From Tupaia tana (lineage: Eukaryota; Chordata; Mammalia; Scandentia; Tupaiidae), in assembly GCA_026018925.1 (NCBI GenBank), contig JAKSZU010000012.1:47110858-47174857 (forward strand): a stretch of 64,000 nucleotides of DNA. Direction: 5' to 3'. The position numbers and the translations under genes are program-made. Numbering within the stretch: the stretch's first letter is position 1; each line of letters opens with the position of its first letter. A model generated the notes under the pieces. It saw only the letters and a list, made by a program, of their open reading frames with translations, was not told where the DNA came from and did no database searches. Positions 4,615-53,811 of this stretch are shown here, piece after piece.

Positions 4615-5356
4615 TAGGATGCATTCTCAAGGGTCTCTCTCCTCCTATTTTCTAAAATTGCTTCAATGGCTGCTGTTCATTTGCAAGGGGAAATTGAACT
4701 ATCCTATTGACAGGCAAATAAGACTGAGCCTCTCAGCTCTGAAGTTAAAGGGCACTTGCTTCTCCCTGCAGGAAGGCACCCCAGGTAACTGAAAGGCATA
4801 TGGGGAGTACCCAAAAAAGGGGTGGGGGACTTACCTTCCATTAGGACAAGTAGCAATCCTATATAAAATCCCAAGCACAATAATTAAAAACAGGCCCATC
4901 TAGTAGATGAGAAATGAGTTGACCACTCAAGCATTTTGGGCCCACTTCAAGGGTGCTAGCTTCTTGAAGGGAACTGAGACATGTAAGATGAGTGATCTCA
5001 ATATGAGAGTGACAGTTAGTGGAGAGACACTCAAAAAGCAGCACACTGGTCCACCACATTATAATCCTTAGATTTGACAGGCTGGTTTCTCTTCTTCAAA
5101 GGTATAAAACATGGGAAATGAAGCATCTATAGTTGGAAAGAAACACGGTGAACAACTCCCTTTGGGCCCCAAAGCTAAATTTATGTATGATAGCTATGGC
5201 CCCTTGACTTGCAAGTATTTAGATAAATGAAAAAAACTTAAAAAGGTTATCTTGATTTAAATTTTCAGGTGAGAGCTATAAGATTTCCAAATTTGTCTTT
5301 CTGTGCTCTAAATTAGAAAATTAGGATCTCATATCAAGAATTGAGGATGACGTTCC
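4615..5356. other. unassigned sequence before ERV-A
   Basis: Only short open frames occur. No motif is recognisable. Confidence 0.4.
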
Positions 5357-5686
5357 TGTTAGATTGGCCCCTGAATAACCTTTAGGTAATTTCCCATCAG
5401 AAAATAAGAAGATGGTTGCAGATGCAGTGACCTTAGCCAGAACCCTCTCTTACTGATGGCCAACATACATAGGTGGGCCAATGAGGTCACAGTGGCAAGT
5501 AAGCTAATCAAAGTACTTGCATTCACCACCCCACCTCTCCCTATAAATACATCACATCACCTCAGTAGGGTGAGCTGAAGCACCTCTGTGTTCAGACCCC
5601 CAGGCTCTTTCTTTCAATTAACTTTCCTTTTTTTCCTTTTTCTCTTGAGATGGTGGCCTCCTGAATCTCACTTCAAACCCTGATAT
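5357..5686 (+). repeat. 5' LTR of ERV-A (family beta)
   Basis: Starts tgttagattggcccctgaa and contains a tataaata-type box at about 5541, followed by a ctctttctttcaattaactttcc region. A second member is at 47347-47612. The downstream primer-binding-like site supports this as a 5' LTR. The exact right boundary is uncertain. Confidence 0.7.
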
Positions 5687-5687
5687 C

Positions 5688-5706
5688 TGGTGCCAAAACC
5701 TATGAG
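5688..5706 (+). promoter_or_regulatory. retroviral primer-binding-like site (tRNA-Phe type)
   Basis: tggtgccaaaacc directly follows the LTR. The first bases fit a primer site complementary to the 3' end of tRNA-Phe, with one mismatch early on and a decayed 3' part. This is inference from recalled tRNA sequence. Confidence 0.5.
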
Positions 5707-5824
5707 ACTCATCGGAGGCAATCATCTCAAGCAAGACTCATACCCTTGCTGAAACTCTCTAGACCTTCTTTCAGGTGAGTGACTAGATTTTAGACCCCAT
5801 GACTTGGAGGTGTAGTCCATGAAA

Positions 5825-7680
5825 TGGGCTCCCTCACTGGGAAAAATCCTAGTGCTATGTCAGCACTCTCCTCTGCCTATTGGGCCTAGGTCCTTCCCTG
5901 ACCCTCTTGACCTGGATGCAGTCCACTGCTTACTGTTCGAAAGAATTTTTTTTCAAGGTTATAGTCCTTTCCTTTATTAGACTTCTGAATTTTAAAAAGT
6001 GGAAGTAAAGCAATCATTCAGATAAAAGAAAAGCATCTTTACCTTGGTTACCCATCAGGTCTAGTCTGACCTGCCCTAGTGCTGGAGAGAATTTTTGGAC
6101 TAGGGGATGCTCTGTCTGATAAATTCTCCTTTGGGTTTCTTGACCTGTCACTTCTTCCACCAGGGACGACACCCAATCACATATTCCAAAGGCTATCTCT
6201 TGGCCTGTCTCCTGAAAAATTTCCACATGCTGTATCCTGGAGGTAAAGTCTTACCTCCTGGGATGCCTCTTCTTTTTTTTTTTTTCCCTTTTTTTATAAA
6301 CTCAGTCTGGCCTCAATATAAACTTGGCAATGGTTCAAGGTGCTCAAAAGATGGCACTTTCAATTTCTAAATTCTTTACAATCTTAATAATTTCCTCCAA
6401 TGTGATGCCAAGGGGTCTGAGTTTTCTTCCTACAGGCCTTTTACTTTCTCTGTGCCTGCCCCTCTCTCTGCTGATCTTGTACCACTTTTCAGATCCTCCT
6501 CTGAAACACCACTCTGTCCCTGCAGATTCAGTGACTTTTGACCAGAACCCTTTTACTGGAGGCTGTCACACTATGAACGAATCTTTTTCTCATTTTAACC
6601 TTTCAGACCATACACTTCCCCCCAATATGTCTTCTACACCTACCTTCTTCCTTCTTAAATGCCTCTTAGCCATTTCCTAAGACTTAAACCTTCCAGCTGG
6701 CCCCCTCCCTTTTTTTTTTCTCCCCAAAGATCTTGAGCCTAATATATTCCCCCTACCCATCAACCTTCTACCCCTCCCACGCCTCTCTTACCACTCTGTA
6801 AAGTTGCAGGAGCTGAAGGTATTATCTGAGTCTATGTACTTTTTCAGTGTTTGATCTCTCACAAATTGAGGTTATACTCAGCAGTTTCTCTTTCAACTTA
6901 AATAAATTTACTAAAAAATCCAAACATCTCTCTCTTTCTTATGATCTATTCTGGTGAGACCTTCACATCATTTTATTTACTTACACTTTTTTAAATAGTG
7001 TGGTTACATTTGGGATAAAATAAGAGAATATAGAGATGATCTTGATCTCAGGTAGCCTCATGCTTATCCCTCTAGATCCACAGCTATCTCTAGCCAAGAT
7101 CCTCATTGAGATGATCAGCACAGGTCTGCAGACTGCAGATGGCAAAACCACATATTCTCTTGCTTTATTGAAGGGATGAAAAGGGCCACGTTAAGTCCAT
7201 CAATTACAATACGGTTAAATGAATTTAGCCAGAGCTCAGATGAAGACCCTGCTCTCTTCCTCTCTAGGCTTTCATAGTCCTTTTGCCTCTGTCTTTGGAA
7301 TGCATTTCATCTCCGAATCAGTCCCTGATATTTGGCATCCGATACAAAAATTGAAAAAGGACCCTAAGACCCTACAATCTAAATTCACAGATCTAGCCTT
7401 CGAGGGCTTTAATAATTGTGATGAGGACAGGAAATTAGATAAAAAGAAAGAAGATTGGCAATAGTCCTGAAAGCAAATGGAAGATTTCCAAATGGTGTCC
7501 TCTACAATTGAAGGAGTATTTCAGGCTCAAGAGGGACTTAACCGAGGCTCCTAACCATCCACAACAAAGACCCTGGTCTTTTTCAGACCTTGGGCTTACA
7601 GGCACTGACTTTGAGTCTGGCTCCACTGAATGGGTTGAGCCTTCAGTAACTCACCCCATCACCTGTAAGTAACTGATTTC
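5825..7680 (+). pseudogene. ERV-A gag and gag-pro boundary remnant
   Basis: A Met-Gly start (atgggctccctcactggg, 5825) opens a 21-codon frame ended by tag, typical of a decayed gag start. At 7219-7464 an 81-codon frame holds PDIWHPIQKLKKDPKTLQS and FEGFNN. These resemble the end of a gammaretroviral capsid around the major homology region. At about 7560-7680 the translation SDLGLTGTDFES then EPSVTHPIT looks like the gag-pro junction leading into protease. Frames are broken throughout, and a SINE follows after an anonymous stretch. No functional product is expected. Confidence 0.6.
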
Positions 7681-10725: not shown

Positions 10726-11142
10726 AGCCTAGAGAGGCACCGAACCATCCGGACCCAAGAAATACAAAGGACCCCAAATACAATCAACCCCAGAAGATCT
10801 TCCCCAAGGCACATCTTAGTCAGGCTGTCTAACGTCACAGAAAAAGACATGATACTAAAACTGGCAAGAGAGAAACGAGAAGTAACTTACAAAGGCCATC
10901 CCATAAGACTAACACCAGACCTCTCATCAGAAACAATGCAAGCAAGAAAAGAATGGGAAGACATACTGAAAGTGTTAAGAGAGAAACAATTTCAGCCAAG
11001 ACTATTATACCCTGCAAGATTATCCTTCATTTGGGAAAAAAAGATTAAAATCTTCTCAGACAAACAAAACCTGAAAGAATTTGCCAACACCAGACCAGCT
11101 CTTCAAGAAATCCTGAAGAAAGTACTGTTCCAGGAAAACTAA
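10726..11142 (+). pseudogene. L1 ORF1p C-terminal remnant
   Basis: About 138 codons of the RNA-binding half of the L1 nucleic-acid chaperone. The RRM end contains RRSSPRHILVRLSNVTEKD, and the C-terminal domain shows VTYKGHPIRLTPDLSSET and RPALQEILKKVLF. The open frame runs upstream to 10618 only through flanking DNA. The N-terminus and coiled coil are lost by 5' truncation, so no chaperone is made here. It ends with taa at 11140, 44 bp before ORF2. Confidence 0.93.
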
Positions 11143-11186
11143 AGACGCAACAGCCAGAAACAAAGAAATAACAGGCAACTAAGACA

Positions 11187-14100
11187 ATGGCTAACTTAAA
11201 TGTCGGTACAGATCCTGTAACATCGATAATAACATTGAATGTTAATGGGTTAAATTCTCCAATCAAGAGACACAGACTGGCTGAATGGATAAAAAAACAG
11301 AAACCCTCTATCTGTTGCCTACAAGAAACCCACCTCATGGAAAAAGACATACATAGACTGAAAGTGAAGGGTTGGAAAAAGGTTTTCCATGCAGTTGGGA
11401 ACCAAAAAAGAGCTGGAGTTGCGATACTAATTTCTGACAAAATAGGCTTTAAAACAAAAAGTGTCCAAAGAGACAAAGAAGGGCACTACATCATAGTAAA
11501 AGGCTCTATAGATCGAGAAGATATAACGCTTATTAATATCTATGCTCCTAACACAGGAGCACCCAAATATGTGAAGGAAAGATTGTTAGATCTGAAAGGG
11601 GAGATAGTCTGCAACACACTAATTGTTGGAGATCTCAACACCGCATTATCCCCTCTGGACAGATCATCTAGGCAAAAAATAGGTAGAGAGATCAAGGATC
11701 TAAATGATACCATAAATCAATTGGACTTAACAGACATCTATAGAACTTTCCACCCAAAAACCACAAGATATAGTTTTTTCTCACCCCGACATGGAACTTT
11801 CTTGAAGATTGACCACATCATAGGACACAAAGCAAGCCTCTGCAGATTCAGAGGCATAGAAACTATTTCCAGCATCTTCTCTGACCATGATGGAATTAAA
11901 CTCGAATTTAATTTCAAGAGAAACCCTCAAAAATACCTAAAAACATGGAAACTAAATAACCTACTCCTGAATGACTCCACTATTACCGAAGAAATAAAGT
12001 CCGAAATCAAAAGATTCATGGAAGCCAATGACAATGAAGATACAAGTTTCCATAATCTTTGGGACACTGCCAAAGCAGTCATAAGAGGGAAGTTCATAGC
12101 AATTAGTGCACATAAGAGGAAGACAGAGAAAAGGCTAATGGATCACCTAACATCAAGCCTTAGAGAACTGGAAAAGCAACAGCAAAAAAATCCAAAAAAT
12201 TACAGGAGAAAGGAAATAATAAAGATCCGAGCAGAAATAAATGAAATAGAAAATAAACGTACTATACAGAAAGTAAGTGAAAGCAAAAGCTGGTTCTTTG
12301 AAAGGATAAACAAAATTGATACCCCACTAGCGAGACTTATTAAGAAGAAGAGAGAAAGGAACCAGATGAATCAAATCTGCAATGAGGCTGGTAACATAAC
12401 AACAGACATAGTAGAAATTCAAAACATCATTAGAGGATACTTTGAACATCTATACGCTAAGAAACAAGATAATCTGGATGAGATGGACAAATTCCTGGAC
12501 AAATATAATCTACCAAGAATGAGCCAGGAAGAAATAGAAAGTCTGACTAGGCCCATAACAAGCCAGGAGATTGAATCAGTAATAAGTAACCTCCCAACAA
12601 AGAAAAGCCCTGGCCCCGATGGATTCACCTCTGAATTCTACAAAACTTTCAAAGAAGAGTTAACTCCCATTCTGCTCAAATTATTTCTAAAGATCCAAAA
12701 GGGCGAATCTCTCCCTAATTTATTCTATGAAGCCTCTGTCACCCTCATCCTCAAAACAGATAAGGACAGGACAAGGAAGGAAAACTATAGACGAATATCT
12801 CTGATGAACATAGACTCAAAGATTCTCAACAAGATACTAGCAAATCGTATTCAACAACTTATAAAGAAGATCATACACCATGATCAGGTAGGCTTTATTC
12901 CAGGAATTCAAGGTTGGTTCAACATACGCAAAACCAGATGTGTAATACATCATATTAATAGGAAGAAAGACAAAAACCATATGGTCATATCGATTGACAC
13001 AGAAAAAGCATTTGATAAGATACAATATCCATTCATGATCAAGACTCTTAGCAAAATCGGCATAGAAGGGCCATTTCTCAATACCATAAAAGCCATCTAT
13101 GAAAAACCCATAGCGAACATCATCCTGAATGGAGAAAAGCTGAAAGCTTTCCCACTAAACACAGGAACAAGACAAGGATGCCCACTTTCTCCTCTCCTTT
13201 TCAATATAGTTCTGGAAGTCCTCGTCAACGCAATCAGAAAAGAGGAAAAAATAAAGGGCATTCAAATAGGAAAAGAAGAGGTGAAACTCTCTCTATTTGC
13301 AGATGACATGATTGTATACATAGAAGACCCAATGGTCTCCATGGAAAAACTACTGGAAGTAATACATGAATTCAGTAAAGTTGCAGCATATAAAATCAAT
13401 ATACAGAAATCGATAGCATTTCTATATACGAATAACAGGCAGACTGAGATAGAACTGAAAAAACTTATTCCGTTTACCATAGCCACTAAAAGTATAAGAT
13501 ATTTAGGAATAAATCTAACCAAAGAAGTTAAAGACCTCCACAAGGAAAACTATGAGAAGGTAAAAAAAGAAATTGAAAATGACACAAAAAAATGGAAGGA
13601 CATCCCATGTTCATGGATTGGAAGAGTTAATATAATCAAAATGGCAATTCTACCCAAATTAATCTACCTATTTAATGCAATGCCAATCAAAGTACCAGAC
13701 ACATTCTTCACAGATCTAGAAAAGACAATCTTAAAATTTGTCTGGAATCATAAAAGACCCCGTATTGCCAAAGCACTTCTACACAAGAAGAATGGAGTGG
13801 GTGGCGTCTCAATCCCCGATCCAAAAATATATTACAAAGCTGTGGTAATAAAGACAGCATGGTATTGGCACAGAAACAGACATGTGGACCAATGGAACAG
13901 AATAGAGTCCCCAGAAATAAGTGCCCAAACATACAGTCAACTGATCTTTGACAAGGGGTACCAGTCAATCCAGTGGGAAAATGAAAGCCTCTTCAGCAAG
14001 TGGTGCTGGAGAAACTGGACTTCCACTTGCAGAAAGATGAATCTGAACCCCTACCTCTCTCCTTTGACAAGAATCAAGTCAAGGTGGATCAAGGATCTAA

Positions 14101-15029
14101 ATCTAAGACCTCAAACTATAAAGCTGCTCCTGGAGAATGCTGGGGAAACTCTGGGAGACATTGGTGTAGGGAAAGACTTCCTAAAGAAGACCCTCAAAGC
14201 AGAGTCCATCGTCCACAAAATAGACAAGTGGGATTACATCAGACTAAGAAGTTTCTGCATGGCCAAAGACACAGTAGTTAGTGTGAATCGACAGCCCTCA
14301 GAATGGGAAAATATTTTTGTAAATGTTGCATCAGATAAGGGACTGATAACCAGAATACACAAGGAACTAAAAAAGGTGTTTGGAAAAAAGATGAGCAACC
14401 CTATTAAAAGATGGGAGAAGGAGATGAAGAAAACACTCTCTAAAGATGACATACGAATGGCCAAAAGGCATATGAAAAAATGTTCAACCTCCCTCATCGT
14501 AAGGGAAATGCAGATAAAAACAACAATGAGGTACCACCTAACCCCAGTCAGATTGTCTAATATTAAAAAAACAAAAAATGATAAGTGTTGGCGGGGGTGT
14601 GGTGAAAGGGGAACTCTTTTACACTGCTGGTGGGAATGTAGATTAGTCCAACCACTGTGGAGAATAATTTGGAGATTCCTCAAAAATCTACAGATAGATC
14701 TGCCATATGATCCAGAGATCCCACTCCTCGGTATCTACCCAAAGGACAGAAGAATTCTGCATTGGAAAAGTGCTTGCACATCGATGTTTATTGCGGCACT
14801 ATTCACAATTGCTAAGTCATGGAACCAACCCAGATGTCCCCGTATGGAGGAATGGATTGAAAAACTGTGGCACATATACTCAGCCATAAAAACCAACAGA
14901 GCCCTGGCTTTTGACAGAAAGTGGAAGAATATGGAAGATGTACTGCTGAGTGAGGCAAGCCAGGCTATGAAGGAGAGACATTGTATGTCCCCACTTAACA
15001 TATACCGTTTGTCTGCATTCTATGTCTGA
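11187..15029 (+). CDS. L1 ORF2p: endonuclease and reverse transcriptase, apparently complete
   Basis: 1280 codons without a stop, against about 1275 in human L1 ORF2p. The N-terminal APE-type endonuclease (about 1-243) keeps N18, E47, Y119, D149, N151, D209, D233 and H234, which are the usual catalytic set shifted by four residues. The reverse transcriptase has [11 protein letters not shown] (motif A), [13 protein letters not shown], and FADD at 704-707 with both catalytic aspartates. The C-terminal Cys-rich motif [18 protein letters not shown] is present near residues 1148-1165. The protein nicks target DNA and primes reverse transcription of L1, and in trans of SINE RNAs. The start ATG is just before TLNVNGLN, as in other L1s. 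With ORF1 and the 5' UTR missing, expression would need a flanking promoter. Intactness of every residue was checked by motif only. Confidence 0.93.
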
Positions 15030-15308
15030 AACTGATTGACTAACAGTTGAACAAACACAAGAGATGGGTGTGAATGTCAGATGAGGTGTATGTGGAGGAG
15101 TGGGGCCCAACGAAAGACATTTAGAGAAGGGATACAGAGGTAGAGCATTGACGGGATGGGGAGGTGTGGTGTTATCTGTTGAAGATATTTCGATCAACGG
15201 GTCTGGGGAGAAATGTTCACATATCGAAATGGTCTCATTGTAAGCCAAACAATATGATTGAAAGTATATACAAAAATAAATAAATTAAATAAAAAAAAAG
15301 CTTGGGGA

Positions 15309-31110: not shown

Positions 31111-31855
31111 CATAACCATTTTCACTCATTGTTAGCAGGACACTCTTGTAACTGTCTAGCCTTTCTGGGTCAGCCAGCCTTTACCTTACAATCTAGACTT
31201 GACTATCTGGGGAAAGCAAGCCATGATCCCAGAGGCCTGAGAGGCCAAGCCCAGTGGCTTGGTCACTCTGGAAGCTGACCAATCTACACTCAGCAGAAGA
31301 CTGAAGATACATCTCCCCGGAAAAACACACATGGACTGTCCTGAATGCTCCCAGACCATTTGTAATAACCCCTTAATTATAACCCTCCTTGTGATTACTT
31401 TCGTTTTTGCTGTAAATCTGGCTGTCACAGTTCTAACTGCTTAAGGATGGTACAAAGAGCTCTGCTAGAATTCTCTTACCTGTTATGTATGAGAAGTCTC
31501 ACTACAGTTTGGTGCCTTCGGCACAGGAGTAGTCCCTTAGCCATGTAAAATCTTGCCTCTCAAACAGCTGAAAAGAGACTCAACAACTAAATAGGAAAAG
31601 ACAGGCTGCTGCTGAGTTATGGAAAGATTAGATTGGCTATAGACTCCTTAACTCTTGCCCTTAAGTCCTCAATCAACTGTGCTTCTAATTTTGACTTTCA
31701 GTCCTGGTTGCTGTTTTGTGGGAAATTTTGTTATTTCCACAAGTACCCAACCAAATGCTGTTTGGCTTCTGTAAACTGCTAACATTACCTCAAAAAGTGC
31801 TGTATCATGATCTCCCTGAAAGCGACTGAGACCAGAAGCTCTATACCAGACAACT
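31111..31855. other. unassigned sequence before integrase
   Basis: No motif could be named. It may hold decayed RNase H or connection sequence. Confidence 0.35.
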
Positions 31856-32571
31856 CACCTAGGACAGACAAAACTAACAAAATTAATAAGGAGTAAACAC
31901 TGTGCTCCAGGCCTAATTAGTTTACTGAATAGTATCACTTCTAGGTGCACTAGTTGTGCCCGAGTAAATGCCAAGCCTTCGGGAGAGGCACTCATGGAAA
32001 TCAGGGCTCAAGGCACCTCCCCAGGGAAACATTGGGAAGTAAATTTTACCACAAACAAAATAAAATCCTCTACAAATGGGTATAGATATCTCCTAGTCTA
32101 TGTAGATACTTTTTTAGGGTGGATTGAAGCCTTCTCCACTAAATCAAAAACTGCTGCTACAGTTACAAAAACTACTCCCAGGCCAGCAGTGGGAATAATG
32201 GCTAGGTCACTGGATTCCCATGTAGTCGACCGCGGTTCACATCCTGGACTCGGTGGCTTAAAACTCACGCCGGGTGCGTGTGCATGCGTGCCCAAGATCC
32301 TGGGAGGAGAACGGAGGAGAAGGGATTGTGGTGTGGCCATCCCCCCTGGGGGGTGATTTCTCGCTTTCTATCTCTCTGTCTCTCTCTGTCTTTCTGGTGA
32401 GTGCACATGCCCTATAGCAAAAACCTCTAAAAAACACACACACACACAAAAAAAAAAACCCAAAAAAAAAACAAAAACAAAAACTACTCCCAAAAATTAT
32501 TCCTAGGTTTGGGTTGCCTATGACAATTGGATCACATAATGGGCCCACATTTGTGGCCAAGATGGTAAGCC
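31856..32571 (+). pseudogene. ERV integrase remnant, split by a SINE
   Basis: One open frame from 31856 reads HLGQTKLTKLIRS and, 29 residues after the His, CTSC. This is the zinc-binding HHCC end. Next come HWEVNFT, where the first catalytic Asp reads Asn, and YLLVYVDTFLGWIEAF. A SINE interrupts at 32181-32477. The frame resumes IIPRFGLPMTIGSHNGPTF, where the second catalytic Asp reads His, and stops at about 32600. Integrase inserts viral DNA into the host genome. Both visible catalytic changes and the insertion make this dead. Confidence 0.85.
32181..32477 (+). mobile_element. tRNA-derived SINE inside integrase
   Basis: Full family A copy with an expanded A/CA-rich tail. The 15-bp duplication caaaaactactccca is at 32166-32180 and 32478-32492. 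Confidence 0.95.
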
Positions 32572-36637: not shown

Positions 36638-37210
36638 GGGGACCTGCCTCGGCAGGGGGGTGGGTTGACTCCTTGAAGGCGGCGAAGGAAAGGAAGACAA
36701 AGGCCTCGTGCCTTTTCATGCAGTCCTCAGCCGGACACTCCTCTGGGATATCTCTCTGAGGAGTGACAACTGCTAGGAATCATTGTGCCTTTTTATTGAA
36801 AATGTGATACATGCAAGTGAACGGGAGAGGGGCTACGTGTTCTAATTATCAATTCATAAAGTTTTAACAATAGGATCAAAGATTGTATTCAGGGTTTGAT
36901 TAAGGGCAGGACTATTACTCATCAATACAATTCAACAATTGTTTGATTGATGTAAGCAAGCTTTTGAGAACTTCTGTTCTGGGAGTGTGGTTTTGGAGAA
37001 CAGCTCCAGCAGGCAGAGTTAATTATCAGCCAGTCCTTGGCGGCAGCCATCTTGCAGTTACTGGTTGTGATTCTAAAAAGGAAAATCTCAAGTACAGATA
37101 TTAGTTCTTATGGATCTCAGTAAAGAATGATATTTTTATAATTTTATAGAGATCTAAAGTTTATTTAAAGGAATCCTAATATATTTACCTATCCTGGAAG
37201 GGTGAAGTTA
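36638..37210 (-). repeat. LTR-like sequence, probably reverse class II type
   Basis: On the minus strand it contains ttttcaataaaaaggc followed by a T/C-rich region and ends ggcaggtccccggca. That suggests a polyadenylation signal and a CA end. The top strand begins tgccggggacc right at the polypurine tract, so a plus-strand 3' LTR is the alternative. A 67-bp part resembles 50644-50712. Confidence 0.4.
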
Positions 37211-38448
37211 GTGTTCACTTGATGAGGGCGGTGACAGCCTTTTCAACTGGTGGCGAAGTGACTAATGAGTTAATGAAAAACTTTGCGGCACACCTAGGCA
37301 TTGTATTGTGCTTGTGGTGCCACCGTCATGTACCTTGTCAGAACATTAGCTACAGTGAGGCGGGGGTGTCCTGGGTCAGCTTCTGCCTAAGAGGTTATTT
37401 TTAAGTTTATGTTAAATGTGTTTTGAAAGGAAGGCCTTCCAAAGATCAAGAAGAACTTTAGCACACCCTTTACTGTGTCCAATGAAGCGCTGTAATTAAC
37501 AGTAAGTGACCAGAGTAAAGGGAGCGGTCGGGGGGATTTTGGGGAAATCTTACTACAAAGATGTATGAGAAAACTATATTAATTCTTTTATAATAATATA
37601 TTGGGGAGTCAGAGGGGGGTCACTTCCCAGCAAGCCTACTACAGTCCCGGAGCAGATAGCAAACAGCCTTGCCAACATGCTAATTGATCCTAGCTTGTTC
37701 CAAGGTCAGGGGGTGTACAGTAGCAACCTTGCCAACGTACTGAACCAACCGGAAGCAATGCTCAAAGATCAAAGGGCTCAGACGGGTCCTGGAGCCCCAC
37801 TGGGCCCCTTCAATGGATGAACACCTCCAAGACAAGTGGGGAATGAAACAGGAATAACTCCATCTTAAAGAAACACCTCTATCATAAACTCCTAGATTCC
37901 TATAACTAGAAACTTGGCTTTCTGTGCCTAATAGTAAACACAGTAATTAACATTCCTATTTTCTTTAAACCCCACTCGTCTTGACTGCCCTATTCATATT
38001 GGGATGGTGATGAAATAATTATAATTACTAATCATTCTAAACTAATGGGGTAAGATCCTCTTGTACATGAACAGCCTCAAGTCTCAACTCTTTTTAACTT
38101 TTCAGCTTCCACAGAGTCACTCCCCCTTTGCTTTTCAGCTTATGGTGTTAAACCTCTTCCATTTTATGTTGCTCTTTTAACCTATAATTCAAGTTATAGG
38201 TTCTCCTTTAGCCACAGGACAGCTACTTCCCTCCAGTTATGATGACCACACTTGTGATGCTTGGACCCTAACTTTCCTTTCTCTTACAGGATATAATAAT
38301 TCAATTTTAGCCACTGCACTTTCTATTCACCCACCTAAGTTACTTTCAACAGAATAGTCCTGGAATGACATTTCCTCATAGTCCAGTTTTCCAAACTGGA
38401 CCCCCTGTGTTTTTCCTAAATACATGGTTTGTTATTTCTTAAATAATT
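37211..38448 (+). other. decayed sequence upstream of the class II env segment
   Basis: The last 370 bp (38080-38448) may be surface-glycoprotein remnant of the class II ERV, with broken frames. The rest is unassigned. Confidence 0.4.
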
Positions 38449-39063
38449 TTGCCTTCTCTTTGTTTGACAGCTTCCCATGTTAACAAATTAACTCTCAATG
38501 TCTCCACTGCCTTGTTTAAACAGAAACAAATTAACCAACAACTGGCTGACAGAGTCAATGCCCTAGAAGAAGCAGCTTTATACTTAGGACAAGAAATTCA
38601 AAATATTAAAGTCCGGTTAACTACTGCCTGTCATGCTGATTATAAATGGATTTGTGTTACTCCTTTACCTTACAATCACACACAAATTACCTGGGAACAA
38701 ATCCAATCTCACCTCAGAGGAGCCTTTAACCACTCTCTCACCATAGACTTACAGAAATTACAGGCTGACATTACAAAAATTTCCAAATCCCATTTGGACT
38801 CCATAACACCCTCTGATGTGGCCAATGGTATTGTGTCCTCCTTATTTGGTGCATTCACCAATTCCAAACACTCATTCTCTATGTTACTTTACTCGGTTGG
38901 AGGTCTTTTTGGGCTTATCTTCCTATGTTTGTTTTGCTTTCCAGTTATCATCAAACAATTCCGTTCTGCCATTACATCAATGCAAACTGAAATTCACCTC
39001 TTCAAACTTCAAAATAAAAAAGGGGGAGATGGAGGAGTCCAAACCAGTGGGACTTACTCATAA
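38449..39063 (+). pseudogene. class II (betaretrovirus-like) env transmembrane segment, long open frame
   Basis: 204 residues remain open. A coiled-coil heptad stretch has LADRVNALEEAALYLGQEI. A CHADYKWICVT disulfide region and an NHT glycosylation site follow, then DVANGIVSSLFGAF. The anchor is LLYSVGGLFGLIFLCLFC with a cytoplasmic tail to the stop. It corresponds to the TM subunit ectodomain, anchor and tail of a betaretrovirus-type envelope. A stop just upstream (38440) and no surface subunit in frame mean no complete Env. The intact frame could be chance or retained. Confidence 0.75.
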
Positions 39064-50270: not shown

Positions 50271-50782
50271 ATTGGTAGCCTGAGATTTTTCTCCAAGGGG
50301 GCTCTTCTGGTCCCTTCACTGGAATAAGGTTCTTTTGTCTCCATTGAGGAGAGCTTGAATCCAGTCTTTTCTAACAGCTTTTTGTACTGCGACTATTATA
50401 ACCTTTGCTTTTTTTATTTTTTTATTTTTTATTATCTATTTTTTATTACATTGAATTACATAAAACTTTACAGTGTATTACATTGCTTTTTCAAAAGGGA
50501 ATGCCATGCATGTCAGTCAGTACAGAGACATTAATCTTCCCGTTTCAACATTCAGTATCTTTCCTATGTTTCCCCCAATCATTATTATTATTATTCTAAT
50601 TATTTTTTATGATAAACATGATTTTTTTTTTCCAATTATCAGATCATAAAGTTCCCAACAATAGGAAACGTAGACTGCACTCAGGGCTGGACCAAGGGTG
50701 GGTCTCGTGCAGCCCCGCAAATGTAGGTGAATCTCCATGGAACACAGTTTCAGGAACGTGGCTCAGGAAAGCAGAGACGGCC

Positions 50783-51543
50783 ATCAGCGGTTGCGGCACG
50801 CGGGGCAGATCCCGGCCACGGCCCACGGGGCAGAGCCCCGGCCACGGCCCGCGGGGCAGACCCCGGCCACGGCACGCGGGGCAGAGCCCCGGTCATGGCA
50901 CGTGGGGCAGAACCCCGGCCACGGCACACGGGGGCAGACCCTGGCCACGGCACGCGGGGCAGACCCCGGCCACAGCACGCAGGGCAGGGCCCCGGCCACG
51001 GCACGCGGGGCAGAGCCCCGGTCGAGCCAGACCTCCGGATAGAGCATGCGGAGCAGAGCCCCGGCCACGGCACGCGGGGCAGACCCCGGCCACGGCACGC
51101 GGGGACAGACCCCGGCCACGGCACGCGGGGGCAGACCCTGGCCACGGAACGTGGGGCAGAGCCCCGGCCACGGCACGCGGGACAGAGCCCCGGCCAGGGC
51201 ACGCGGGGCACGCGGGGCAGAGCCCCGGTCGGGCCAGACCTCCGGATAGGGCATGTGGAGCAGAGCCCCGGCCACGGCACGCGGGGCAGACCCCGGCCAC
51301 GGCACGTGGGGGCAGACCCTGGCCACAGCACGCAGGACAGAGCCCCGGCCACAGCACGCGGGGCAGACCCCGGCCACGGCACGCGGGGCAGAGCCCGTCG
51401 GGCCGGACCTCCAGACAGGGCACGTGGAGCGGAGCCCCCGCGCCCTGACCCCGCACCCCAGCACGTGGAGTGGAGCCCCCGCGCCCGCCTCCCCACCACC
51501 GCGCGCTGGCACGCAGAGCGGAGCCCCCGCCTGCTGCCCCTGG
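50783..51543. repeat. GC-rich VNTR with higher-order structure
   Basis: About 22-24 units of 25-27 bp with the core ggcacgcggggcagaccccg, each carrying a short ggggc-aga-gcccc hairpin. A variant unit starting gtcgagccagacctccgg recurs at 51021, 51228 and 51397, giving 207- and 169-bp superunits. The right part (51420-51543) has diverged 41-48-bp units with gcacgtggagcggagcccc. Extremely CpG-rich in an AT-rich locus. Open frames on both strands reflect composition. Confidence 0.95.
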
Positions 51544-51545
51544 AC

Positions 51546-52035
51546 GTTTAATTGTATCTAGTACTTCTTGCATATTATTCTCAAAGTTTTGGGCCATTTT
51601 CTCAGTCTTTATGGTGGACCTTTCTAGGCCAGCCATTTTCTCTTCTACATTAGAGATTCTATTTTCTGAATGATCTAGTCTGCTTTTAATACTTTCAAGG
51701 GAGATTTTGACTTCTTGTATTATATCCTTCATCTCTAACAGCTCCATCTGATTCTTTTGTAAAGTGTGAAACTCCTCTTTTAGATCTTGCATGAATTTCC
51801 TCACCTCCTAGAACTCTTCAACTCCTTTCTCCTTCCCCTTCAGCAGTTCCTTGTCTCTCTTCTCTTCGATCTCTGTTCGCTTTGCCATTATGAATGATCT
51901 GAATTGTTTATCAGACATTTCCATGAATTCCCTTGAACTGTGTGTGGATGAAGAGGAGCTATCCGTTTCAATTGGAGGAGAGGCATTTTCCTGCTTCTCC
52001 ATATTTCTTGTGGTCCTGCAGCGATTTCTAGTCAT
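51546..52035 (-). pseudogene. L1 ORF1p N-terminal half fused to the VNTR
   Basis: ATG at 52035. The first 75 codons run to KGVEEF, then an in-frame TAG (51810-51808). The same frame continues VRKFMQDLKEEFHTLQKNQM, SRLDHSENRISNVEEKMAGL and VLDTIKRP, then passes into the repeats. This covers the N-terminus and the trimerising coiled coil of ORF1p. The RRM and C-terminal RNA-binding domains are absent. Apart from the TAG, the frame is clean and continues through the VNTR to 50893. Confidence 0.85.
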
Positions 52036-52256
52036 CTGGTAGATGGTCGGTTTCTTTCCAAACTTTTGAAGTTTAATATGAGGGTTGGGAAGTGTGCAGA
52101 AAAGGAAGCAGAGAGAGGGAAACAATACCAACAACAACAACAAAAAAAAACCAGACAAGAAACAGAGAAAAAGAAGAGAAAAGCTTTGGAATTCATCTAA
52201 AAAAGAAAAATTAATATTAAAAAAATTTCAATAAAAATCAAAAATTAGAAAACCGC

Positions 52257-52276
52257 GCGGCGCGCTAGCGCGCCGC
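52257..52276. other. 20-bp perfect GC palindrome
   Basis: gcggcgcgctagcgcgccgc is its own reverse complement. It sits in the leader of the composite element, 222 bp before the ORF1 start, within AT-rich sequence. Confidence 0.95.
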
Positions 52277-52449
52277 ACGAAATGTCTAGAGAGAGACAAA
52301 GATTGATTCAGAGACAGGAGATATGAAAGGGGTCTTCCTACCACGTGGGTTTTGTATGCTGGAGGCCCAGTTAGGAGTGGGACATCTTCCTTTCTCCCAG
52401 CATGTCTAGATCTCAGGAGCCATTGAGCAGACTCTAACCTTTGCTTTTT

Positions 52450-53250: not shown

Positions 53251-53811
53251 AAATGTAATAGCTGGGTCCTAAGAATTGGTTGAGTTGGAGCAAAATGATA
53301 AATAGTGATTGAATGTCTAAAAAAATGAGAATAATAATAATCTGGAAAAATTGATGAACAGCTATTTGATGATGATGATTTTGATAGTAATGTTTTTTGT
53401 CTTGACTGATATGTGTGGTATTCCTTCTGGAAAAAGAAATATAATACACTGTGAAGTTATACGTGATTCAATATAAACAAACAAGATTATGTTAATAATA
53501 AAGAAAAAAAAGAATTGGTCAAATCGGTCTGCCAAAATGATGGGAAAATCTTATAATGATTTAATTTCTTTCTTAACGTTTCTAACTTTGGTACTCCTGA
53601 GGAGACCATTCACAAATACAACCTCTCCTTGCCCCATGGGGACTTCCCTAAGGGGAAACATTTAGGATGTTTCCTTAGAAGCCCCAAGGGTTTGGACTCT
53701 ATGTGGGATATGAACATTCAGGCTGCCTAGGGCCCTCTTTTCTCCCATTCTGTGGGTCATAAGGAGGAGGAGGGCAAGATAGAGGATCCCAGGATTCTTA
53801 TTAACTTTCTT
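53251..53811 (-). other. decayed ERV-G gag or unassigned sequence
   Basis: Position fits minus-strand gag between linker and capsid. No motif is readable. Confidence 0.35.

Follow-up and report, generated by a model that had tools for sequence, protein, structure and literature searches.

The segment at positions 50414-52434 of the window (the whole 64-kb stretch of DNA that was analysed) is very probably a copy of a young, non-autonomous composite retrotransposon family in a non-hominoid mammal, with the origin and replication cycle that we propose below. The family itself is real and young and bears the marks of mobilisation by L1, and the segment is not a one-off. An exact 15-bp target site duplication (TSD), TAACCTTTGCTTTTT on the plus strand, lies at 50399-50413 and 52435-52449 and bounds the element. 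Poly-T at 50414-50447 corresponds to an A-rich tail of the opposite strand; the element's sense strand is therefore the minus strand, and it reads from 52434 to 50414. The preliminary description had regarded the segment as one RNA-mediated insertion; the exact TSD and the A-rich tail that it named were found again, its end points are exact, and the segment is a single L1-type insertion. From 5' to 3' it consists of an L1 5'UTR, the N-terminal half of ORF1, a GC-rich VNTR, a 342-bp 3' domain and poly-A. These parts, and two separate but related repeats of the window, are as follows.

52435-52449, no strand: TSD at the 5' end of the element, with exact 15-bp identity to 50399-50413
52036-52434, minus strand: L1-type 5'UTR (leader); monomer spacing 113; 61% identity to L050 and 94% to L052
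52254-52279, minus strand: GC-rich palindrome within the leader, 92% self-complementary; one arm also in the 5'UTR of the young L1 L050
51540-52035, minus strand: N-terminal half of L1 ORF1, ending with KRP before the RRM domain; junction position the same in 14 of 14 copies
51808-51810, minus strand: in-frame TAG of the ORF1 half, found in 14 of 14 copies
50790-51539, minus strand: GC-rich VNTR with 25-26 bp units and a 207-bp higher-order unit, from TRF and comparison with other copies
50448-50789, minus strand: 3' domain, 342 bp; among 1463 genome candidates the best 40 are 98-100% identical
50630-50705, minus strand: LTR-like stretch of the 3' domain, 74% identical to 36840-36913
50450-50609, minus strand: terminal part of the 3' domain, 69% identical to an older short poly-A family
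50414-50447, minus strand: A-rich tail after AATAAA, read from the sequence
50399-50413, no strand: TSD at the 3' end of the element, with exact 15-bp identity to 52435-52449
53281-53509, plus strand: separate but related, a member of the older short poly-A retroposon family; 2502 candidates; AAGAATTGGT at either side (by eye)
36700-37060, minus strand: separate but related, an abundant LTR-like repeat; 1853 candidates; 76 bp in common with the 3' domain

The search covered the window's own genome (2.948 Gb in 1198 contigs). Among the 1463 candidates for the 3' domain, the best 40, window included, are 98-100% identical. The junction between the ORF1 half and the VNTR occurs 547 times (30-base pattern, at most two mismatches) and that between the VNTR and the 3' domain 1063 times (32-base pattern, at most two mismatches), and the reversed control patterns gave zero matches in both cases. 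An exact VNTR/3' junction lies less than 6 kb from at least 25 of the 34 ORF1/VNTR junctions listed on C111, C220, C231, C242 and C253, and nine are without one; nearness was judged against exact 3' matches only, so the 25 are a lower bound. Fourteen of the 18 leader loci on C111, C220, C231, C264, C275 and C297 have a listed ORF1/VNTR junction downstream. Among the other four, whose junctions may fall below the matches listed, C231:20713448 has a VNTR/3' junction, and C220:28595261, C275:32275852 and C275:1637064 have no ORF1/VNTR junction among the matches listed. A leader match on C375, at 87%, also belongs to a composite (L051).

We read 38 of the 39 other best matches of the 3' domain (C264:3012952 was left out); being drawn from the 40 best matches, this sample leans towards young copies of the window's own kind. 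Thirteen of the 38 (L011, L012, L015, L018, L019, L020, L023, L027, L028, L029, L037, L038 and L039) contain the ORF1 half, the VNTR and the 3' domain with identical joints, apart from single nearby substitutions. The base at which ORF1 gives way to the VNTR is the same throughout the 13, and the leader is present in every one of them except L012. The preliminary description held that several copies sharing the junctions, each with its own TSD, would establish a family, and that a single genomic copy would speak against one. The 547 and 1063 junction matches, the TSDs of 26 of the 38 copies and the 13 copies with all three parts establish the family and leave no room for the single-copy case.

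The family may already have a name in Repbase or Dfam or a published description, although we consider this somewhat improbable. It has more than 1000 copies, and any de novo repeat screen of the species would catch pieces of it. Against this, the titles and opening lines of abstracts among the literature matches listed show no mammalian VNTR composite outside Old World primates, and the composites named in the available parts of two papers are SVA, SVA2, LAVA, PVA and FVA (PMC4432496, PMC5753468). The same kind of partial text calls VNTR composites hominoid-specific (PMC4432496, PMC7353768, PMC5753468) and names SVA2, in macaque, as the common ancestor (PMC4432496). VNTRs are also frequent in the accessible text of a paper on fungal telomere retrotransposons (PMC12857005).

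The copies bear the marks of L1-type insertion, namely a TSD, a poly-A tail, a TT/AAAA target and 5' truncation. Of the 38 copies, 26 have an accepted TSD, 10-18 bp long, and the remaining 12 have none that was accepted; nine of the accepted TSDs are in copies with an ORF1 half and 17 in the other 25. Fifteen of these 17 copies start inside the VNTR or the 3' domain, and the other two start with a SINE (L017) and with inverted VNTR (L045). As a control, shared strings of at least 13 bp between the 3' flank and the upstream sequence were found in 22 of 38 copies versus 12 of 152 mismatched flank pairs. The nick consensus at the 27 accepted sites (26 copies and the window; the 12 copies without an accepted TSD are left out) is TT/AAAA. 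T occupies position -2 in 22 of the 27 sites and position -1 in 18, and A occupies +1 in 27, +2 in 24, +3 in 20 and +4 in 27, the A positions being partly forced by the boundary of the poly-A tail and the T positions not. The window's own site, AAAC/AAAA, is without the TT. Taken together, the insertion sites fit the L1 endonuclease.

Two of the copies read have unusual 5' ends. In L017 (oriented positions 5096-6342) a single 18-bp TSD encloses a SINE and a 5'-truncated composite, as would result from a template switch, during reverse transcription, from composite to SINE RNA. In L045 (oriented positions 5674-6365) the TSD is followed by a 5' end that consists of reversed VNTR, like the 5' inversions of L1.

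Over the 342 bp of the 3' domain, 39 copies differ from their consensus by a mean of 1.13 substitutions, or 0.33%, and 106 pairs are identical; this set was picked by similarity to the window, so the value holds for the family's young part. With neutral substitution at about 2.2e-9 per site and year, 0.33% corresponds to one to two million years for that young part. The window copy has five substitutions and belongs to one of two subfamilies, which differ in the leader (GACAGTCTGCTC versus GAAAGCCTGCTC).

The preliminary description had read the 5' part as an L1 leader followed by half of an L1 ORF1, and comparison with L1s of the same genome confirms both. Two young L1s were compared (L049 and L050, from the window's genome). 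L050 matches the leader at 61% over 658 bp (E 2e-29), and its 5'UTR is arranged in the same way: monomers of about 120 bp in tandem are accompanied by a T-rich stretch and a partial monomer, and one palindrome arm is present; the 5'UTR of L049 differs from the leader. The parent-like L1 is L052, a copy of another lineage, which is 93.6% identical over a 708-bp alignment that begins in the leader and continues through ORF1, with a further 84-bp block at 94%. It is without 88 nt of leader between the two aligned blocks (the partial monomer and the palindrome) and without the TAG. The parent lineage has 1299 L1-type continuations.

The in-frame translation of the ORF1 half is identical to an L1 ORF1 protein at 104 of 134 positions (78%), and its DNA is 85% identical to the two young L1s and 94% to the L1 copy of the other lineage in the same genome, the likeness ending at CGTCCA. 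Past this point, at KRP, the L1s go on with AATATC or AACATC, and the composite goes on with GGGGCAGCAGG. Splicing is unlikely as the source of the ORF1/VNTR junction, as the L1s examined are without a GT after CGTCCA. The composite's frame has no L1 RRM or dsRBD domain by Pfam, which recognises both in the C-terminal piece of ORF1 in the window's own L1; the half that was kept is presumably the coiled-coil part, by comparison with L1 ORF1p. This L1 of the window (10726-15295, plus strand) is 5'-truncated, has AAAAGCTTGGGGA at either side (by eye), and contains an ORF2 frame of 1285 aa, open from stop to stop, with reverse transcriptase and endonuclease domains by Pfam.

A protein search with parts of the element gave no match in viral contigs or GTDB contigs. 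The sole match in protein databases, P0003, is deposited as Streptomyces narbonensis. The best ORF1s of this mammal's genome are 98% identical to it, and it is apparently a contaminant of a bacterial record, namely an L1 ORF1 from this mammal or a near relative.

In the 12 other copies that have it, the leader includes one to five monomer heads, spaced by 113 bp inside arrays and by about 320 bp where a longer unit repeats; the 113-bp monomer is tandemly repeated in several other copies, including L015 and L018. The window copy begins within a monomer at GAGTCTGCTC, and L015 and L018 begin there or one base away. These near-identical starts suggest that the composite has a preferred start site inside the monomer. 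The full-length 5' ends (the window, L015, L018, L023 and L027) all begin in L1 monomers. The window's leader is also without about 200 nt between two TCTA microhomologies; splicing was rejected as the reason for this gap, which has TCTA/TCTA borders and no GT-AG.

All 14 ORF1 halves (the 13 copies and the window) have a TAG at codon 76, at which the L1s L049 and L052 read CAG, and the ORF1 half of L015 is frameshifted as well. Because the TAG is common to all 14, the common ancestor of the copies read made no complete ORF1p. ORF2 is absent, in the window by its sequence and in the 13 other copies by an interval of 404-2263 bp, with VNTR matches, between ORF1 and the 3' domain. On these sequence grounds the element is taken to be non-coding and dependent on L1 proteins. 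It is highly improbable that it is instead a coding, HAL1-like element, in which the reading frame of the ORF1 coiled coil would extend into the VNTR and yield a chimeric member of L1 ORF1p trimers. Apart from the one TAG, the frame does stay open from the coiled coil until well into the VNTR, and the minus-strand VNTR frame in line with ORF1 has CPACRGRG-like units that score as the DnaJ CXXCXGXG motif (Pfam, E 5e-11). We take this match as chance. Four other frames are open over most of the VNTR, on both strands, so open frames are no evidence of coding, and the VNTR differs in length among copies, so that the frame leaving it differs too. Together with the L015 frameshift, the TAG at codon 76 of every copy largely refutes the coding hypothesis, which we reject in favour of a non-coding element.

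The VNTR itself, which the preliminary description had called GC-rich, is substantiated by TRF, with scores of 652-803 over 50794-51397 and periods of 26, 51, 77 and 207. Its length ranges from 404 to 2263 bp in the 13 other copies with an ORF1 half. The VNTR is long and GC-rich and some of the fetched loci contain N runs, but fragments brought together by chance, segmental duplication and misassembly of the VNTR can all be dismissed as explanations: the junctions recur by the hundred across many contigs, the control patterns have no matches, and 26 of the 38 fetched copies sit in their own flanks with their own TSD.

The 3' domain is itself composite. No source was recognised for its positions 1-84. 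Positions 85-160 (50705-50630) are 74% identical over 76 bp to the LTR-like repeat at 36840-36913, with an alignment score of 32 versus a maximum of 15 in 60 dinucleotide shuffles. Positions 181-340 (50609-50450) are 69% identical to the older short poly-A family, of which 53281-53509 is a copy, and the alignment of these last 160 bp scores 53 versus a maximum of 22 in 60 dinucleotide shuffles. The LTR-like 3' end of the preliminary description therefore stands for the 76 bp that resemble the LTR-like repeat, and does not stand for the last 160 bp, which match the older short poly-A family. When the element was searched against the window, the 342-bp domain did not match the 3' untranslated region of the L1 there, the only L1 3'UTR compared.

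Both relatives of the 3' domain are abundant repeats. The best 40 of the 2502 genome candidates for the older short poly-A family start at query positions 8-11 in 36 cases, at position 1 in three (the query and two further copies from its contig) and at position 22 in one; the 36 starts at positions 8-11 suggest that this family has a fixed 5' end. The LTR-like repeat has 1853 candidates, the best 40 of which are at 94-100%, and two of its copies lie 4.6 kb apart on one strand of C642, which would be the spacing expected of a provirus. Both stretches (53281-53509 and 36700-37060) recur at 96-97% on C231, near 47.06-47.08 and 46.84-46.85 Mb, and the occurrence of these copies within about 0.3 Mb suggests a local segmental duplication. 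Elsewhere in the window are a 206-aa open frame that matches retroviral transmembrane envelope protein (38443-39063, plus strand; GP41, E 7e-34, Pfam) and an integrase piece at 31820-32356.

Two copies have additional sequence at their 5' ends. L028 begins with 345 nt of GC-rich sequence, then a 34-nt flank (ACTTAACTTCTTCAGTAGTTAAAAAGTCATTATA), then the composite, and L019 begins with 544 nt of different sequence, followed by the same 34-nt flank. The L028 exon matches C642 at 92313528 (plus strand, 99%) and 90463128 (minus strand, 98%). The 5' pieces of L019 lie on C642 at 92312721 and 92320071 (plus strand) and, mirrored, at 90464181 and 90456828 (minus strand), at 97-99%, and the flank lies at 92325700 (plus strand) and 90450180 (minus strand), with one mismatch each. 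The pieces are in the same order at both C642 loci, and weaker or partial relatives occur elsewhere on C642. The exact 34-nt flank occurs only at C275 (L019), C309:61551320 and C331 (L028), each time directly before the composite start; by match positions, the C309 copy has part of the L028 exon, then an L019 exon, then the flank. At the C642 loci of this assembly the flank is not followed by the composite start within three mismatches, so the source element is not seen in this assembly.

The spliced host exons at the 5' ends of L028 and L019 imply a processed RNA intermediate. L019 was rejected as the source of L028, because it starts further upstream, with other exons, and has its own TSD (AAAAGTCATG); for the same reasons both copies must derive from a third element. 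We infer that a composite once inserted at TT/AAAAAGTCATTATA in the duplicated host locus, and that transcripts from a host promoter underwent splicing and gave rise to three or more retrotransposition events. The capture of spliced host exons by the 5' end is on record for SVA_F1 (MAST2) and pt_SVA_D6 (STK40) (PMC6139936). One further 5' piece of L019 is identical to C531:4702415-4702528 (100% over 114 bp) and ends where the C642-derived piece begins; it is unexplained.

These observations are consistent with the following origin and cycle. The 5' half of an L1, comprising a monomer-type 5'UTR and ORF1 up to the start of the RRM, would have fused with a GC-rich VNTR, and a 3' domain from another source, part LTR-like and part related to the older short poly-A family, would have been added. 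Transcription may start in the monomers of the L1 5'UTR or at a host promoter further upstream, and polyadenylation would occur at the element's own AATAAA, as read from the sequence. L1 ORF1p and ORF2p would then capture the RNA in trans. A nick at TT/AAAA followed by target-primed reverse transcription would give the variable 5' truncation, the poly-A and the TSD of 10-18 bp seen in the insertion anatomy.

By the features tested, the family works like SVA but lies outside the SVA lineage. The parallel with SVA and LAVA drawn in the preliminary description, as a composite retrotransposon spread through RNA, is supported by the common junctions and the individual TSDs. Like SVA of hominoids (and SVA2 of macaque and gibbon), the element has a 5' part, a GC-rich VNTR, an ERV-related 3' part and poly-A, in that order, together with L1-type insertion, variable VNTR length and captured spliced host exons at the 5' end. 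In contrast, the SVA 5' end consists of CT-hexamers and an Alu-like domain, and here it consists of an L1 5'UTR and an ORF1 half; a CT-hexamer and Alu-like (7SL) 5' domain was not found, the full-length 5' ends beginning in L1 monomers. The 3' domain is only partly LTR-like, and the host is not a hominoid. The 3' ends of the SVA/LAVA/PVA/FVA lineage are HERV-K (SINE-R), AluSz/L1ME, PTGR2 or FRAM. The VNTR units are 25-26 bp, and SVA units are given as 30-50 bp in the accessible text of one source (PMC4432496). The likeness of the VNTR to those of SVA, LAVA, PVA and FVA is one of kind only. The gibbon elements LAVA, PVA and FVA are, in the same partial source, also VNTR composites with differing 3' ends that L1 mobilises in trans (PMC4432496); unlike the present family they share an Alu-like 5' part, of which none was found here, and the L1 piece of LAVA is an L1ME fragment at its 3' end.

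That the host is not a hominoid follows from the absence of Alu/7SL and the presence of another SINE-like repeat. Rfam, at its gathering threshold, gave no match in the 64-kb window, and hence no Alu/7SL, whereas a window of hominoid DNA would show Alus. A SINE-like repeat about 270 bp long occupies 16 places in the listed self-comparison of the window; it is tRNA-like by eye, and ARAGORN calls no tRNA.

Two kinds of L1 derivative are also similar in part. HAL1 (half-L1), whose 3' end is an L1 3'UTR, encodes ORF1p, whereas here ORF1 stops before the RRM and has the common stop codon, and a VNTR and a foreign 3' domain come after the ORF1 half. Like the present element, HAL1 is a non-autonomous L1 derivative, according to the part of the source available (PMC5753468), and has no ORF2. 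Tandem monomers of 113 bp precede the composite's ORF1, and those of a young L1 in the same genome are about 120 bp; here, unlike in monomer-type L1s, the monomers precede an element without ORF2. Monomer-type L1 5'UTRs are as in mouse L1.

We consider it reasonably probable, all parts taken together, that VNTR composites arose independently in another mammalian lineage with the same design, that the VNTR is a selected module, and that the family is very young and probably still jumping. If so, the convergence would take in a 5' part that bears a promoter, a VNTR rich in GC, a 3' end derived in part from an ERV, and the capture of spliced host exons. The GC-rich VNTR would then be a module selected for trans-mobilisation by L1, and not an accident of primate history. 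Since these composites are called hominoid-specific in the papers examined, it has been hard to tell which of their odd parts matter, and a second, apparently independent family of more than 1000 copies would serve as a natural replicate. The features common to both (the GC-rich VNTR, the partly ERV-like 3' part and exon capture) would be candidate needs of an L1 trans substrate, and those not in common (the Alu-like domain and the CT-hexamers) would be candidates for dispensable parts. With a matching L1 lineage and near-identical copies in the same genome, these proposals would be directly testable.
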